From: Euzebya rosea
GTDB lineage: Bacteria; Actinomycetota; Nitriliruptoria; Euzebyales; Euzebyaceae
DNA: 64,000 nt
Assembly: GCF_003073135.1 (NCBI RefSeq)
Contig: NZ_PGDQ01000006.1
Location: 1 to 64,000 of the forward strand
Direction: 5' to 3'
Shown: in pieces, positions 11,524 through 41,791 of the stretch
Layout: each line of letters begins with the position of its first letter
How positions within the stretch are numbered: position 1 is the stretch's first letter
Notes under the pieces: generated by a model
What the model saw: only the letters and a program-made list of their open reading frames with translations
Told to the model about the DNA's origin: nothing
Database searches by the model: none
Program-made: the position numbers and the translations under genes

Positions 11524-12786
11524 GTGCTGGATCCCTCCACTTCGCCGCCGTCCGATCCCACGTCCTCCGTCCCCTCCACGGCCGCGACGGACGGACCACC
11601 TGCCGTGGCATGGACCAGCCCGACCGCACAGCTGATCGACCCTCGCTTCTCTGCGGTCGCACGCGCCTTCGAGGCCCTGTACCGCAAGCCGCGCGACGGA
11701 GGTGGGGCGCTGGCGGTCTACCTGCACGGCGAACCCGTGCTGGACGTGTGGAGCGGCTTCGCCGACGTGCACTCCGGCCGACCGTGGCGGTCCGACACCA
11801 TGGCCATGTCGTTCTCCACCACCAAGGGCGTCACGAGCACCCTGGTCCATCGGCTCGTCGCCAGGGGCGTCCTCGACGTCGACGAACCCGTCGCCACGTA
11901 CTGGCCGGCCTTCGCCGCCCGGGACAAGCACGACCTGCTCGTCGCCGACGTGATGACGCATCGCTCGGGCCTGCACCGGGTCCGCGGCATCGCCGAGGCC
12001 AGCGGGGACCTGCTCGACCATCGCCGCATGGCGGACGTCCTCGCCGGGCGACGTCCCGAGGACACCCGCGGGGTGCCGGCATACCACGCCATGACCTACG
12101 GCTACCTGATCGCGGCGATCGTCGAGGGGGCCACGGGCCGACCCTTCGAGGCCGTGCTGGCCGACGAGGTCCGTCGCCCGCTGGGGCTCGATGGCCTGTA
12201 CATCTCCGCGCCCGTGGACCAGCACCAGCGGATCGCCCCGTTCTTCGAGACGATCGCCCCGTTCGGCATGAGCCTGTCCGCCGTCGGGCACTGGGTGAAG
12301 AAGGTCGACCGGTTCCGTCCGTTCGTCGATGCCCTGCTGCCGCACGGCTTCGACGAGATGATGAACTCCCCGGCGATGTGGCAGGCCACCATCCCGGCGG
12401 CCAACGGCATGTTCACCGCCCGGTCGCTGGCCCGGATGTACGGGGCGCTGGCCAACGGCGGGGTCATGGACGGCGAGGAGTTCCTGCCCCATGACGTGCT
12501 GCAGGAGGCCGGCCGGGTGCGCACCAAGGATCGCGACCGGGTCCTCGGGTTCCGGATGCGCTGGCGGCTGGGCTACCACCAGGCCTTCACCGCCGACCGC
12601 CGCAACCAGCCCCGCATGGCCTTCGGCCACTACGGCCTGGGTGGCTCGGGGGCCTTCGCGGATCCCGAGACCGGGCTGGCGATGGCGTTCGTCACCAACA
12701 AGCTCGGCCGCGGGTCCACGCCGGTCGCGGACTTCCGGTTGCCGAGGCTGGCCGCGGTCGCCCTGGCGGCGGTGCGAACGCCCTGA
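11524..12786 (+). CDS. Serine hydrolase, class C beta-lactamase/esterase family
   Basis: A 420-residue protein of the beta-lactamase-related family (PF00144), which includes esterases and D-amino-acid peptidases. The catalytic SxxK is in MSFSTTKGV (Ser-Thr-Thr-Lys), the Tyr motif in AMTYGYLI, and the third motif in FGHYGLGGSG near the C-terminus. No signal peptide is present, so a cytoplasmic esterase is likelier than a true beta-lactamase. The GTG at 11524 fits a leaderless transcript; an in-frame GTG at 11491 is the alternative but lies inside the promoter. The stop codon meets that of the convergent nitrite reductase gene within a 12-base palindrome at 12784-12795. Confidence 0.82.
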   Translation: MLDPSTSPPSDPTSSVPSTAATDGPPAVAWTSPTAQLIDPRFSAVARAFEALYRKPRDGGGALAVYLHGEPVLDVWSGFADVHSGRPWRSDTMAMSFSTTKGVTSTLVHRLVARGVLDVDEPVATYWPAFAARDKHDLLVADVMTHRSGLHRVRGIAEASGDLLDHRRMADVLAGRRPEDTRGVPAYHAMTYGYLIAAIVEGATGRPFEAVLADEVRRPLGLDGLYISAPVDQHQRIAPFFETIAPFGMSLSAVGHWVKKVDRFRPFVDALLPHGFDEMMNSPAMWQATIPAANGMFTARSLARMYGALANGGVMDGEEFLPHDVLQEAGRVRTKDRDRVLGFRMRWRLGYHQAFTADRRNQPRMAFGHYGLGGSGAFADPETGLAMAFVTNKLGRGSTPVADFRLPRLAAVALAAVRTP

Positions 12787-12792
12787 CCGTGG

Positions 12793-14361
12793 TCACGCCT
12801 CCTCCACGACCACCAGTCCCTGCATCCACGGATGCGGCGTGCAGTAGTAGGGGTACTCGCCGGCCTCGTCGAAGGTGAAGGCGAACGTGTCCCCGGGGGC
12901 CATGTCGCCGGAATCGACGCGCCCGTCGGGATCACCCGCCCGGCCGTCGGAGGATCCGGTGGTCACGGTGTGGGGCAGGACGTCGTCGTTGGTCCACGTG
13001 ACCGTCGTGCCGACGGGCACGACGATCGCCGGTGGGTCGTAGGCGCGGTCGCTGTTCTGGGGGTCGAACGCCCCGTCGGGGATGCTGACGGTGTCGGTGG
13101 CCACCGGGTCCGGGGTTGCGCCGTCCGTGGCGGGCGCCTCGGTCGCGCCGGTCGTGGCCGTGGCCCCGATCGCCGCGGCGGCCGTGCTCGTGAACAGCTC
13201 GGCGTTGTCGCGGCCCTCGATGACGACCATCCCGAGGGCGCCCTTGTAGAAGGTCCGGACCAGGGCGTGGTCGACCAGGATGACGGTGCTCGGGACGAGG
13301 CCGACGAGGTCGACGACGGTGCCGCCCCCGGCCACGACCAACGTCGACTGGGAGCCGCGGATCGGGGTGTTGACCTCGTGGGTGGCGGCCTCGGGCCACA
13401 CGGCGTCCCAGTGGCTGCCGATCGGGTGGAAGTTGGAGTCCAGGTTCAGCCCCTCGTTGACCATGTGGATGCGGGCGCGCTGCCCCACCTCCATGCGAAG
13501 GGCGTTGTCGCCAGTCAGCGCGTCGGTCCTGCCGTTGAAGGTGACGTAGCGGGGGTCCTCGGCCATCAGGGCGTCGCGGTCGAGCTCGGCGATCCCGTCG
13601 CCGTCGGGCTCGCCGACGTACCACTCCGACTGCATCACCGCCCACTCGTGGTCGGTGTGCGGCATGGGTGTCTCGGGGTCCACCACGAACATGCCGTACA
13701 TGCCACGGACGATGTGCTCCGGCACGTCACCGAACGCGCAGTGGTACATGAACGCGCCGGGGTACAGCAGCCGGACCTCGATGGTCGCGGCCTCGCCGGG
13801 CAGCACCGTCAGCGCCTCGGCGCCACCGCCCTGACCGGTCACGGCGTGGAAGTCGATGTTGTGGGCCATGGAGTTGCCGGCGAGGTTGGTCAGCCGGATG
13901 CGCGCGACGTCGCCGACGCGGCCGCGCAGGACCGGTCCGGGGGAGCCGCAGACCACGTCGTCGCCGGCGACCCGGTAGCCCCACATCATCGTGCTGACGT
14001 CGTTGGCGGGGTCCAGCGGGCAGACCCCCTCCAGGACCTCCAGGTCGACGTCGAAGACGGCCGGTTCGGTGCGCGCTGCGGCCGGGGGCATCTCCGGGGC
14101 GTAGGCGGTGTGGCGCTCGGAGGAATCGGCCACGGGCAGCGAGGCCCGCGGGACGAGCTCGGGGTGGATGGAGGGCAGCTCGTGACCCGGTGTCCACGTC
14201 AGCGCCGCCAGGGTGGTGGCGGCCGCTTCCTCGCTGGCCATGGCATCGGCGGCGCTGCGCTCCTCCGAGGACATCGCTGAGCAGGCCGCGGCACCGGCGC
14301 CGATCACCAGGGCGCTCATGACCTCGCGTCGACGGAGCATCGGTCCGGTTCGTTCGGGCAT
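12793..14361 (-). CDS. nirK: Copper-containing nitrite reductase with C-terminal cupredoxin domain (NirK type)
   Basis: A 522-residue multicopper protein that should reduce nitrite to nitric oxide outside the membrane. The first 25 residues hold a twin-arginine motif (LRRREVMSAL) and a possible lipobox ending in AAAC, so Tat export and lipid anchoring are likely. Type 1 copper ligands are visible as H167, C208, H216 and M221; type 2 ligands as H172, H207 and H365; the catalytic Asp and His are D170 (HNIDFH) and H317 (GSHWDAVW). A second type 1 cupredoxin (about residues 425-522) has H464, C507, H510 and M513 and may feed electrons to the catalytic part. ATG 14361 follows GGGAGGT. A copper-storage gene lies close by. 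Confidence 0.85.
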   Translation of the reverse strand: MPERTGPMLRRREVMSALVIGAGAAACSAMSSEERSAADAMASEEAAATTLAALTWTPGHELPSIHPELVPRASLPVADSSERHTAYAPEMPPAAARTEPAVFDVDLEVLEGVCPLDPANDVSTMMWGYRVAGDDVVCGSPGPVLRGRVGDVARIRLTNLAGNSMAHNIDFHAVTGQGGGAEALTVLPGEAATIEVRLLYPGAFMYHCAFGDVPEHIVRGMYGMFVVDPETPMPHTDHEWAVMQSEWYVGEPDGDGIAELDRDALMAEDPRYVTFNGRTDALTGDNALRMEVGQRARIHMVNEGLNLDSNFHPIGSHWDAVWPEAATHEVNTPIRGSQSTLVVAGGGTVVDLVGLVPSTVILVDHALVRTFYKGALGMVVIEGRDNAELFTSTAAAAIGATATTGATEAPATDGATPDPVATDTVSIPDGAFDPQNSDRAYDPPAIVVPVGTTVTWTNDDVLPHTVTTGSSDGRAGDPDGRVDSGDMAPGDTFAFTFDEAGEYPYYCTPHPWMQGLVVVEEA

Positions 14362-38725: not shown

Positions 38726-38843
38726 CGGGGCCTCCGTCGGTTGATCGGCTGTGCCGGACGCTACGCCTCCTCGACCCGTCGGCGCGCCCGGGCCGCGGTC
38801 GTGGCGTCGACGACGGCCGTGCTACGGTGCGCGTCGCTCGAAT

Positions 38844-38989
38844 GCTGCAGTGCACGGGAAGCCGGTGAGAATCCGGCGCTGTCGTCGCAACTGTGACCAG
38901 GGAGCGTCCCGCCAACTGACCACTGGACCTCGTGTCCGGGAAGGCCGGCGACGACGCGTCGATCTGGCAGCCAGGAGACCGGCTGCAGC
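38844..38989 (+). promoter_or_regulatory. Cobalamin (B12) riboswitch
   Basis: The outer stem P1 is GCTGCAG (38844-38850) with CTGCAGC (38983-38989). Inside are the conserved GGGAAGCCGGTGAGAATCCGG block (from 38856, quoted only in part elsewhere), GCAACTGTGACC and the B12 box AGCCAGGAGACCGGC (38969-38983). It should bind adenosylcobalamin and repress the downstream FhuF-like/cobB/cobO genes. Because a ribosome site follows at 39016-39025, control of translation is plausible. Confidence 0.92.
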
Positions 38990-39028
38990 GCAGAGCCCGA
39001 CCATCCGCGACCGACGGAGAGGAGGGCC

Positions 39029-39058
39029 GTGCGGCGCCGCCGCTCGACCGCCCGATGA
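39029..39058 (+). CDS. Possible 9-codon leader peptide between riboswitch and FhuF-like gene
   Basis: GTG 39029 follows the strongest ribosome site in this region (GGAGAGGAGGG, 39016-39026) and opens MRRRRSTAR, ending in TGA 39056-39058, which overlaps the ATG of the FhuF-like gene (ATGA). The FhuF-like start itself has no ribosome site. The arrangement suggests a coupled leader peptide on which cobalamin control could act; a peptide product is unproven. Confidence 0.35.
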   Translation: MRRRRSTAR

Positions 39059-39831
39059 CCCACACCACCGACCACCCTGCCGTGGCCACCGTGCTGTCCG
39101 ACTGCGCCACGTCGTGGATGCCCGTCATGCTCGGCCGTCCACCGACCGAGGTCGACCACCACGGCACCTGGTTCCCCTTCACCACCCTCGTCGAGGAGAC
39201 CCGGCTGGCCCGGAGGGTCCGCGAGATGGCCCCCGACTACGAGGGGCTGGCCGACGTCGCCACGGCGTTCCTCGCCAGCCGCTTCGCCTCGCCGCTGGCG
39301 TTGCTGGCCGGCGCCCCCGTGCACCAGCACGGCGTCGCGGTTGCCTACGCCGTCGAGGACCTGTGGCTGCGCCGAAGCGCCCGCGGCTGGTTCAACGGCA
39401 TCGCCGTCACCGACGCGACCCTCGACACGCCGGACACGGCCGCCCCGCGCGCCGTCGAGCACTACCGGCCCGTCGTCGAGCGCCTCCGCCGGGTCGGCAA
39501 GCTCGGGAAGCGGGCGATGTGGGGACAGCTGGCCGACGCCCTGGCCACCACCGCCGGTCACGCCCACGACGCCGCCGGTGACGCCGAGGCCGCCGCACAC
39601 GGCAGCGCGCTCCTGCTCGAGGCAGCCGACCCGCCGCTGTGGGGCACACCGACCTTCGAGCGCATCGAGGCCGGGGGTGCGGTTGGCCTGGCGTGGCGCC
39701 GGAGCTCGTGCTGCCTGGCCTACCGCTGCGAACGCTACGAGCTGTGCACCGGTTGCCCGCTGACCCCGACGGAGGAGTGGCGCGCCAAGTCCATCGCCTC
39801 GGTCATGCAGCGTGCCGGGTCCCACGCATGA
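39055..39831 (+). CDS. FhuF-like 2Fe-2S protein under cobalamin control
   Basis: A 258-residue protein. Its C-terminus carries the CCx10CxxC signature of the FhuF ferric-siderophore reductase family: C219, C220, C231 and C234 (SSCCLAYRCERYELCTGC), expected to bind a 2Fe-2S cluster. The rest matches the helical, cytoplasmic FhuF-type body. It is the first gene after the cobalamin riboswitch and overlaps cobB (ATGA), so it is read with cobyrinate amidation and corrinoid adenosylation genes. That context suggests reduction of the corrin cobalt, needed before adenosylation, rather than siderophore reduction; this is inference. ATG 39055 was chosen because a GTG at 38932 lies inside the riboswitch. 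Confidence 0.75.
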   Translation: MTHTTDHPAVATVLSDCATSWMPVMLGRPPTEVDHHGTWFPFTTLVEETRLARRVREMAPDYEGLADVATAFLASRFASPLALLAGAPVHQHGVAVAYAVEDLWLRRSARGWFNGIAVTDATLDTPDTAAPRAVEHYRPVVERLRRVGKLGKRAMWGQLADALATTAGHAHDAAGDAEAAAHGSALLLEAADPPLWGTPTFERIEAGGAVGLAWRRSSCCLAYRCERYELCTGCPLTPTEEWRAKSIASVMQRAGSHA

Positions 39832-41246
39832 ACGCCCCCGTGCCGACCGTCGTCGTCGCCGGCACCGCCTCCGGGGTCGGCAAGACCTCCGTCGCCACCG
39901 GCCTGATGGCGGCGCTCCGAGCCGCCGGTCACGTCGTGCAGGGCAGCAAGGTCGGTCCCGACTACATCGACCCGAGCTACCACTCGATCGCCACCGGCCG
40001 GCCGGCCCGCAACCTCGACGTGTGGCTCAGCGGGGCTGACCTGATCGCCCCGCTCGCGCGACACGGCGCGACCGGCGCCGACATCACCGTCGTCGAAGGG
40101 GTCATGGGCCTGTTCGACGGCAAGTCCCCGACCGAGCTGACGGCGTCCACCGCCCATGTTGCACGCCTCCTCGGTGCGCCGGTCCTGCTGGTGGTCGACG
40201 CCGGTGCCATGGCCCGCTCCGCCGCGGCGATCGTGCATGGTTTCGCCACCTTCGACCCGGGCACCCGCCTCGCTGGTGTGGTCCTCAACCGTGTCGGCTC
40301 GCCCGGGCACGCCGACCTGCTGCGGCAGGCGATCGAGCCGACCGGTGTCGAGGTCGTCGGGGTCCTGCCGCGCATGGACGACCTGGCGACACCCTCCCGC
40401 CACCTCGGGCTCGTCCCCGCGGACGAACGCCGCGCGGACGCCCACCGGACCGTCGCTGCGCTGGGGGAGTGGGTCGGAGCCCACCTCGACCTCGACGCGG
40501 TGATGCGGCTGGCCCGGACAGCCGACGTTCCCGACGTGCCGGCATGGTCCCCCGCCCCGACCGACCGCGTCCACGGCCCCCCGGTCGGGGTCGCCATCGC
40601 CGGTGGGCCGGCCTTCTCCTTCCGCTACACCGAGAACCTCGAGCTCCTCGAGGCCGCCGGGGCGACCCTGCTGCCGTTCGACCCGATGCACGATGCGTCG
40701 CTGCCGGTCGGCACCGACGTCGTCTACCTGGGCGGCGGCTTTCCCGAGGTGCATGCCGACGCACTGGCCGACAACACGGCCATGCTCGCGGAGATCCGCG
40801 CCCACGCGGCCGCCGGTCGACCGGTCGTCGGGGAGTGCGGTGGGCTCCTCTACCTCTGCCACGACCTCGACGGCACCCGCCAGGCCGATGTGCTCCCGGT
40901 CACCGCAACCATGGACGCGCGGCTGACGCTCGGCTACCGACGGGCGATCGCCGCGAGCGACTCGATCCTCTGGCGGCGGGGCGAGGTCGTGACCGCCCAC
41001 GAGTTCCACCGCACCGTCACCGATCCGCCCGCCGGCGCCGACCCCGTCGGCACGGAGGGTGATGCCACACCAGGTGTGGCCTGGCGTGTGGAGGACCGGG
41101 ACGAGGGCTTCGTCACCGCGTCGATCCATGCCTCCTACCTGCACACCCACTGGGCGGCGTACCCGCAGGCAGCCACGCGCCTGGTTGCCGCCGCACGCAC
41201 GACTGACCATCCACCGACGTCCCCCACCTCCCTGGAGTCACCATGA
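39828..41246 (+). CDS. cobB: Cobyrinic acid a,c-diamide synthase
   Basis: A 472-residue CobB/CbiA enzyme that amidates carboxyls a and c of the corrin ring with glutamine and ATP. The N-terminal synthetase domain has the P-loop GTASGVGKTS (12-21), KVGPDYIDPSYHS and VVEGVMGLFDG; the C-terminal glutamine amidotransferase domain has the catalytic C337 in GECGGLLYL, and HEFHRT late. It overlaps both neighbours by four bases (ATGA at each end), forming a tight cobalamin operon. Confidence 0.93.
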   Translation: MNAPVPTVVVAGTASGVGKTSVATGLMAALRAAGHVVQGSKVGPDYIDPSYHSIATGRPARNLDVWLSGADLIAPLARHGATGADITVVEGVMGLFDGKSPTELTASTAHVARLLGAPVLLVVDAGAMARSAAAIVHGFATFDPGTRLAGVVLNRVGSPGHADLLRQAIEPTGVEVVGVLPRMDDLATPSRHLGLVPADERRADAHRTVAALGEWVGAHLDLDAVMRLARTADVPDVPAWSPAPTDRVHGPPVGVAIAGGPAFSFRYTENLELLEAAGATLLPFDPMHDASLPVGTDVVYLGGGFPEVHADALADNTAMLAEIRAHAAAGRPVVGECGGLLYLCHDLDGTRQADVLPVTATMDARLTLGYRRAIAASDSILWRRGEVVTAHEFHRTVTDPPAGADPVGTEGDATPGVAWRVEDRDEGFVTASIHASYLHTHWAAYPQAATRLVAAARTTDHPPTSPTSLESP

Positions 41247-41791
41247 GTCGCCGATCGACCCCCCTCCTCCTCGTCAACACCGGACACGGCAAGGGCAAGT
41301 CCTCCTCGTCGTTCGGGGTGCTCAACCGCGCGTGGCACCAGGGCTGGCGCTGCGGGGTGTACCAGTTCGTGAAGTCCGGCAAGTGGAGGATCGGGGAGCG
41401 TGTCGCCGCCGAGACGCTGTCGGCGTCGGAGGTGGGCGGGACGATCGACTGGTTCTCCGTCGGTGACGGCTGGACATGGACCAGCCGCGACCTCGAGGAG
41501 TCCGCCGACCTGGCCCGGGAGGGGTGGGAGGAGGTCAAGCGCCGCATCGCCGACGAGACCTACGACTTCCTGCTGCTCGACGAGTTCACCTACCCGATGA
41601 CGTTCGGGTGGGTCGACACCGCCGAGGTCATCGAGGTCCTGCGGACGCGGCCGGGGCACCAGCACGTCTTCATCACGGGGCGTGATGCACCGGCCGAGCT
41701 GGTCGAGCTCGCCGACCTCGTGAGCGAGGTCACGAAGGTCAAGCACCCCTTCGACGCCGGCATCAAGGCGCAGCCCGGCATCGAGTGGTGA
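41243..41791 (+). CDS. cobO: Cob(I)yrinic acid a,c-diamide adenosyltransferase
   Basis: A 182-residue CobO/BtuR-type enzyme that transfers the 5'-deoxyadenosyl group of ATP to Co(I) corrinoids. The N-terminal P-loop-like NTGHGKGKSSS (12-22) and VYQFVKSGKW, and later LLDEFTYPMTFGWVD and HVFITGRDAP, are typical. It starts with ATG overlapping the cobB stop. Its substrate must be reduced to Co(I), which fits the reductase-like first gene of the operon. Confidence 0.93.
   Translation: MSRRSTPLLLVNTGHGKGKSSSSFGVLNRAWHQGWRCGVYQFVKSGKWRIGERVAAETLSASEVGGTIDWFSVGDGWTWTSRDLEESADLAREGWEEVKRRIADETYDFLLLDEFTYPMTFGWVDTAEVIEVLRTRPGHQHVFITGRDAPAELVELADLVSEVTKVKHPFDAGIKAQPGIEW

Follow-up and report, generated by a model that had tools for sequence, protein, structure and literature searches.

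A FhuF-like [2Fe-2S] protein encoded with cobB and cobO behind a cobalamin riboswitch in Euzebya rosea: a candidate corrinoid reductase of vitamin B12 salvage

The 64,000 nucleotides of Euzebya rosea DNA analysed here (contig NZ_PGDQ01000006.1, positions 1 to 64,000; "the window") carry a gene for a FhuF-like protein that is preceded by a cobalamin riboswitch and followed by cobB and cobO (Table 1). The riboswitch match covers model positions 1-189 of RF00174, for which the gathering score is 31.5, and lies 53 nt from the start codon of the FhuF-like gene on the same strand. Both joins, that of the FhuF-like gene with cobB and that of cobB with cobO, are 4-bp overlaps. The cobB product scored 507.6 bits with NF002204 (cut-off 254) and the cobO product 203.5 bits with TIGR00708 (cut-off 167.75). 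The riboswitch, the gene order and the two overlaps had been described in an original prediction made from the sequence alone, and all are borne out by RF00174, the family profiles and the ATGA joins; the four cysteines that it listed are at the residues claimed. The riboswitch is called from its match to the family model; the folding energy of the leader gave no support, being no better than that of shuffled sequences (z 0.58).

Table 1. Riboswitch, genes and cysteine codons of the operon in the window
Feature	Coordinates	Strand	Evidence
Cobalamin riboswitch aptamer (RF00174), operon head	38808..39001	+	92.4 bits, full length; kept in congener G003
FhuF-like [2Fe-2S] protein, 258 aa, proposed corrinoid reductase	39055..39831	+	Pfam/TIGR profiles; G003 relative 87%; dN/dS ~0.28
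CCx10CxxC codons (C219, C220, C231, C234), putative [2Fe-2S] ligands	39709..39756	+	Sequence; E. coli FhuF cysteine ligands (PMC8068687, in part)
cobB, cobyrinic acid a,c-diamide synthase	39828..41246	+	ATGA overlap with FhuF-like gene; NF002204
cobO, corrinoid adenosyltransferase	41243..41791	+	ATGA overlap with cobB; TIGR00708

The C-terminal part of the FhuF-like protein is SSCCLAYRCERYELCTGCPL, i.e., CCx10CxxC. The FhuF family is known for releasing iron from siderophores. The window protein passed the Pfam profile FhuF_C (PF11575; 21.9 bits, cut-off 20.5) and missed the cut-offs of Pfam FhuF (PF06276; 21.0 versus 25.2 bits, E 5e-4) and of the siderophore-iron reductase equivalog TIGR03951 (38.9 versus 63.85 bits, E 9e-10). 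Up to an E value of 1, it matched neither the flavin-reductase domain PF01613 nor any PDB sequence. An AlphaFold2 model, made from an alignment of two sequences only, had a mean predicted local distance difference test (pLDDT) score of 35.2. There was no second FhuF match in the window genome. A phage origin of the gene was rejected, as nothing in the PHROGs profiles matched its product.

In what follows, G000 is the window genome, G001, G002 and G003 are its congeners, other G handles are further genomes, and L handles are loci. When the window protein was searched in 61 genomes (its own and 60 relatives), six had a match, including its own, and the only close one was in congener G003 (87% identity). 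There, the same riboswitch lies upstream of the FhuF-like gene, cobB and cobO lie downstream, and the leader is near-identical to that of G000 when the two are aligned. The FhuF-like genes of the two genomes differ by a nonsynonymous divergence (dN) of 0.085 and a synonymous divergence (dS) of 0.304, a dN/dS of about 0.28 that indicates purifying selection. For cobB, dN/dS was 0.18, and cobO was 99.5% identical. The repeated arrangement, the near-identical leader and the purifying selection led us to reject a chance open reading frame as an explanation of the FhuF-like gene. When contigs were searched with an alignment of four sequences, 56 matches to the pattern came up and a single distant relative, identical in its protein to that of G183, was confirmed.

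Congeners G001 and G002 had no match to the FhuF-like protein. Their matches to PF07685 (cobB/cobQ) reached at most 31.5 bits, covered short parts of the profile and were in some cases just above the cut-off of 27; similar weak matches occur in G000. Strong matches had 161 and 108 bits in G000 and 162 and 101 bits in G003. Across the four genomes of the genus, the FhuF-like gene occurs where cobB/cobQ occurs and is missing where they are missing (two of two versus none of two).

From its gene content, G000 looks like a corrinoid salvager. Two TP_methylase proteins were found in each of G000, G001, G002 and G003, against 7 in G004 and 6 in G006 (same family and order). The two of G000 are a uroporphyrinogen-III C-methyltransferase fused to a HemD-like part, and RsmI. 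No corrin-ring TP_methylase besides the uroporphyrinogen-III one was found in G000, TP_methylase being the only family searched among the ring enzymes. Because its TP_methylases are limited to these two, G000 probably does not make the corrin ring. A second riboswitch (C4:281533) is followed by genes for a BtuF-like and a BtuC-like protein, an ATP-binding cassette (ABC) ATPase, CobQ, a HemB-like frame (read from the sequence, with no profile scan), CbiZ and a second binding protein. CobS is also encoded in this genome. A third riboswitch (C2:85872) is followed by genes for a cell-wall-binding-repeat protein and an energy-coupling factor (ECF)-type transporter with a CbiQ-like subunit; this locus (L060 9673-16854, in G000:C2) is perhaps a surface capture system for corrinoids. 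Given such a salvage-type gene set, imported corrinoids are a likelier substrate of the FhuF-like protein than newly made cobyrinate diamide. As for the substrate of CobB in a salvage genome with CobQ, CbiZ and CobO, the enzyme may serve in re-amidation of degraded corrinoids.

The window protein was also used as a query in a phylum-wide search of 396 genomes. Thirty-nine of them matched, and the 43 matches outside G000 and G003 were checked against riboswitch positions. In G348, a genome of family f29, a riboswitch is followed by genes for a BtuF-like protein, a BtuC-like protein, a 585-amino-acid protein with an ABC ATPase at its front and FhuF_C (30.4 bits) at its end, and a DUF7676 protein. 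We take f29 to be the Mycobacteriaceae, which a PPE protein in G348 partly supports. When f29 was searched with the FhuF portion of the G348 fusion, 54 matches were obtained in 46 of 201 genomes; the loci of 53 of these matches were analysed, and G509:C10 was left out.

For the detection of riboswitches, a home-made regular expression was dropped after it had matched only 5 of 19 riboswitch-bearing sources, and RF00174 and a model of our own, R1, were used instead. The 28 known copies from which R1 was made came in part from the loci under study, and riboswitch positions were therefore checked against RF00174. By R1 and RF00174, 32 of the 53 f29 FhuF matches had a co-directional riboswitch within the preceding 6 kb. 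For 31 of the 32, the riboswitch is among the RF00174 matches listed, and that of L232 passes RF00174 at 33.0 bits; two of the 32 FhuF matches, both in L238, share one riboswitch. The distance from riboswitch to FhuF was 2.8-3.5 kb for 26 of the 32, and BtuC- and BtuD-like matches lay between them in every one of the 26. The remaining six distances were 46, 143, 431, 1148, 1522 and 4982 bp. At 16 of the 26 transporter loci, there was a BtuC at least 59% identical to that of G348, together with a BtuF relative (at least 52%) and a DUF7676 protein. No cobB or cobO relative was found at the f29 FhuF loci.

At 40 other phylum-wide FhuF loci (L103-L142 without L108, plus L172), R1 found no riboswitch, with 13 of 13 control loci, chosen because they carry riboswitches, positive; some of the 40 are short at contig ends (for example L104, 7.2 kb), where a more distant riboswitch would be missed. 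Rfam found no riboswitch in 8 of these 40 loci, and contig G207:C53 has none among the RF00174 matches listed. The comparison of 32 of 53 with 0 of 40 gives a Fisher P of 4e-11; this does not have the meaning of an independent-sample test, since the loci compared are related to one another and the query for f29 was itself taken from a riboswitch locus.

Nine f29 matches are intact fusions between FhuF and a BtuD-like ATPase, all nine with a riboswitch upstream. A fusion was recognized by a Walker A pattern that shared an open frame with FhuF, and a Pfam scan was made for that of G348 alone. A tenth fusion, in G407 (L171 7986-8921), has one in-frame TGA within the match. When the btu operon of G000 was compared with the operon of G348, BtuC was 53% identical, and BtuD was 47% identical to the ATPase part of the fusion. 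Residues 6-241 of the window protein align to the FhuF part of the same fusion with 28% identity (E 2e-12, a single pair). Judged by these alignments, the G348 fusion unites two proteins that G000 encodes separately, in two operons that are each controlled by a riboswitch, cobO being part of one of them.

At five of the f29 loci (L244, L245, L247, L248 and L249), a FhuF gene stands beside genes for a CobW-family GTPase and BluB with no transporter, and Rfam found no riboswitch there. The BluB profile scored 213 and 217 bits in L245 and L248 (cut-off 150), and BluB of the other loci is 94-98% identical to that of L245. The FhuF match of L247 has an in-frame TGA. In L239, L242 and L243, which belong to the same genus, the CobW-family GTPase/BluB pair is found beside an intact riboswitch-BtuF-BtuC-BtuD-FhuF operon. 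The simplest reading of the five bluB loci is that the transporter was lost and the FhuF part was kept. Set beside L239, L242 and L243, they make up a natural deletion series within one f29 genus.

Other features were observed at the f29 loci. DUF7676 (PF24724), a family of unknown function, is linked to B12 uptake there, the protein or a tblastn relative of it coming after the FhuF part in 16 riboswitch-BtuFCD loci (L108 10365-10940 and 15 others). In L108, a cobalamin riboswitch (12759-12940, minus strand) precedes a PPE-family gene adjoining the BtuD-FhuF operon; similar copies occur in L237 (11234-11415) and L171 (11471-11652). A distinct FhuF subgroup with the motif CCHWYAAPDGxxCSWC (L228, L229, L230, L233, L235, L238, L213 and L210) has a co-directional cobalamin riboswitch upstream in seven of its eight members.

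Riboswitch-linked domains were clustered in a tree of 87 FhuF domains: the label required 14 changes, compared with a mean of 26.8 after shuffling, and none of 500 shuffles was as low. L171, L223 and L247 (motif absent in the frame taken), G509:C10, and L109, L124, L132, L142 and L172 (partial or with an internal stop) were left out of this tree. A branch with support 99/88 splits the window protein and its G003 relative from a group of all 50 rows of the f29 search and the f23 rows L139 and L140. Two f29 rows of the phylum-wide search, L127 and L129, are on the window protein's side of this branch. Several tip branches are long, and the exact place of the window/G003 pair is unsure. As the tree separates the window protein from the f29 group, the association with the B12 riboswitch arose at least twice or was spread by transfer. 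We consider that, as far as the tree goes, the B12 link of FhuF probably arose at least twice. Because the FhuF halves belong to different tree groups, the fusion of G348 and the two operons of G000 suggest a shared role and not one inherited system.

These observations point to the FhuF-like protein of E. rosea as being, probably, a cytoplasmic corrinoid reductase with a [2Fe-2S] cluster that serves in B12 salvage, and it likely acts mainly on salvaged corrinoids. In actinobacteria, the use of FhuF-type proteins on imported vitamin B12 ahead of its activation has apparently evolved two or more times. The original prediction had proposed that the protein reduces the cobalt of cobyrinate a,c-diamide before adenosylation or releases cobalt-bound ligands. 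The link to corrinoid handling and to CobO is supported, and it is backed by the riboswitch- and transporter-linked and fused FhuF of other actinobacteria. Newly made cobyrinate a,c-diamide was not supported as the main substrate: the TP_methylases of G000 lack corrin-ring members beyond the uroporphyrinogen-III one, and its riboswitches head BtuFCD-CobQ-CbiZ and ECF-type import genes. A wider proposal, which we rate as only a little short of probable, is that FhuF-derived [2Fe-2S] corrinoid reductases or decyanases, acting in trans beside CobO in the genus of the window and fused to BtuD in others, are a regular part of B12 assimilation in many actinobacteria and would reduce the Co(III) corrinoid and remove its upper ligand at entry.

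CobO-type enzymes need a Co(I) corrinoid, and to our knowledge the protein that reduces incoming cobalt is not settled in many bacteria. Reduction of Co(II) to Co(I) in solution takes about -0.6 V, and the adenosyltransferase is thought to help. We propose that corrinoids would enter as Co(III) bearing an upper ligand. The cluster of the FhuF-like protein, with a potential close to that of E. coli FhuF, would donate one electron and so reduce Co(III) to Co(II); with this reduction the upper ligand, be it water, cyanide or an alkyl group, would leave. CobO would then take the Co(II) corrinoid, a second electron, from the FhuF-like protein or a general donor, would give Co(I), and CobO would add the adenosyl group. 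Plentiful adenosylcobalamin would act on the riboswitch and lower the expression of the operon. In f29, the domain fused to the importer ATPase would meet the corrinoid on entry. The potential given for E. coli FhuF in the part of PMC8068687 used here is -0.36 V at pH 7.4, and it is pH dependent. Reduction of Co(III) with release of the ligand is the likelier part of the role, since -0.36 V suits the step from Co(III) to Co(II) and the Co(I) step is much harder.

Several points weigh against a corrinoid reductase. The exact FhuF-cobB-cobO order is found in just two genomes, and of the 43 phylum-wide matches only those of G348 and G407, both of f29, are within 6 kb of a riboswitch; the tree sets the window protein apart from the f29 cases, which are thus analogous in setting and not orthologous. 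E. coli FhuF, by its potential, is not reducing enough to take Co(II) to Co(I) in free solution. cobB is retained though neither ring synthesis nor a source of cobyrinate is apparent. At 10 of the 26 transporter loci, the identity of the BtuC-like protein to that of G348 is just 26-38%, a siderophore permease is possible by sequence, and B12 is inferred from the riboswitch alone. Twenty-one of the 53 f29 matches have no co-directional riboswitch within 6 kb. Besides the five bluB loci, these include L210, L212 and L227, where the riboswitch is in the other orientation (L210 and L212 also have BtuC/BtuD-like genes nearby), and L221, where the FhuF gene adjoins a gene for the siderophore reductase SIP. 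L236 is a fragment, and the rest of the other 16 lack the panel genes, save for a low-identity BluB match in L216; BluB matches at 29-42% identity were not counted as BluB. Some of these points fit an ordinary ferric-siderophore reductase that has come to be placed in a B12 operon and would, like E. coli FhuF, release the iron of imported siderophores, its B12 link being accidental or a cross-regulation of related importers. The SIP neighbour agrees with it, as do a SIP-like match about 6.6 kb off in the riboswitch-linked L246, the membership of FhuF_C, and the FhuF loci elsewhere in the phylum, most of which are without a riboswitch. Peripla_BP_2 binding proteins number six in G000, five in G001, two in G002 and six in G003. 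Two of those in G000 are in the B12 locus and four elsewhere; together with the single FhuF match of G000, the four extra proteins make a siderophore role possible, and siderophore uptake may occur in this genome. Congener G001, with its five Peripla_BP_2 proteins, has no FhuF match, and riboswitch control, the linkage with cobB and cobO, and the FhuF genes linked or fused to riboswitch-controlled transporter genes elsewhere all speak against a plain siderophore reductase, which we regard as unlikely. The original prediction had named, as evidence that would count against it, a CobR homologue elsewhere in the genome together with siderophore genes co-varying with this subfamily. Such a combination did not show up in the form named, though it may still exist. 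PF01613, the flavin-reductase domain, occurs in one protein each of G000 and G003; for the G000 protein, the one compared with solved structures, the nearest is nitrilotriacetate monooxygenase component B and none is named CobR. Across the four genomes, the Peripla_BP_2 counts neither match nor clearly contradict a siderophore link.

Three other roles lie closer to B12. The protein could be a dedicated cob(II)yrinate a,c-diamide reductase between CobB and CobO on a biosynthetic route, as the gene order FhuF-cobB-cobO and a CobB that is a good family member would suggest. Ring methyltransferases were not found in G000 and G003, endogenous cobyrinate is not expected, and at the f29 loci the partner of FhuF is an importer, with no cobB or cobO relatives; we therefore give this route a rather low probability. 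We think it about as improbable that the protein is an electron donor or ligand remover for another B12 step, such as reactivation, dealkylation or repair, with CobB and CobQ re-amidating degraded corrinoids. Such a role would account for cobB and cobQ being kept without ring methyltransferases and for FhuF being kept beside bluB at the five f29 loci that lack riboswitch and transporter, but the nine fusions with an importer ATPase point to freshly imported corrinoid. Least probable of all, and very much so, is a Co(III)-chelate (cobalt-siderophore) reductase that supplies cobalt. The chemistry of FhuF on metal chelates and the ECF-type genes with a CbiQ-like subunit behind the third riboswitch would fit it, but a genome without corrin-ring synthesis has little cobalt need for B12.

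If the protein is a corrinoid reductase, the substrates of FhuF would widen from ferric siderophores to corrinoids, and there would be a dedicated reductase or decyanase of the kind that papers on mycobacterial B12 either mark as undetermined or take to be unnecessary. Being under B12 control, and kept with cobO or, in another lineage, fused to BtuD, such a protein offers a concrete candidate, open to test, for a step of B12 metabolism that is little understood. In the portion of a 2025 review on M. tuberculosis cobamides that we draw on, decyanation is marked as not determined (PMC12713380), and in the corresponding portion of a 2021 study, which names the btuFCD operon of M. smegmatis, B12 conversion probably proceeds without a specific enzyme (PMC8088520). 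The term FhuF is absent from the main texts of both. The parts available of PMC7689651, PMC4531530 and PMC7870966 do not connect FhuF with corrinoids. We found no link of FhuF with corrinoids or B12 in the open-licence literature, subscription papers and preprints being mostly outside this scope.

Among known systems, the f29 FhuF, fused to BtuD or linked to a transporter, resembles the window protein in being a FhuF domain under a cobalamin riboswitch with import genes. It differs in belonging to a separate group of the tree and in being encoded with an importer, whereas the window gene is with cobB and cobO. CobR is a flavin-dependent cob(II)yrinic acid a,c-diamide reductase with a flavin-reductase fold. 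The window protein would fill the same step before CobO, but it is a FhuF-type iron-sulfur protein. CblC/MMACHC is a decyanase. The outcome proposed here, removal of the upper ligand before adenosylation, is like that of BtuM and CblC/MMACHC, to which the window protein is unrelated and from which its chemistry would differ; decyanation by BtuM is cysteine-mediated according to the title of a paper cited in PMC12713380. The ferric-siderophore reductase FhuF of E. coli (TIGR03951, PF06276/PF11575), from what is given in part of PMC8068687, binds ferrichrome and shares with the window protein the C-terminal CCx10CxxC with its four [2Fe-2S] cysteines and the FhuF_C match. In contrast to E. coli FhuF, the window protein falls below the TIGR03951 cut-off and is encoded behind a cobalamin riboswitch, together with cobB and cobO.

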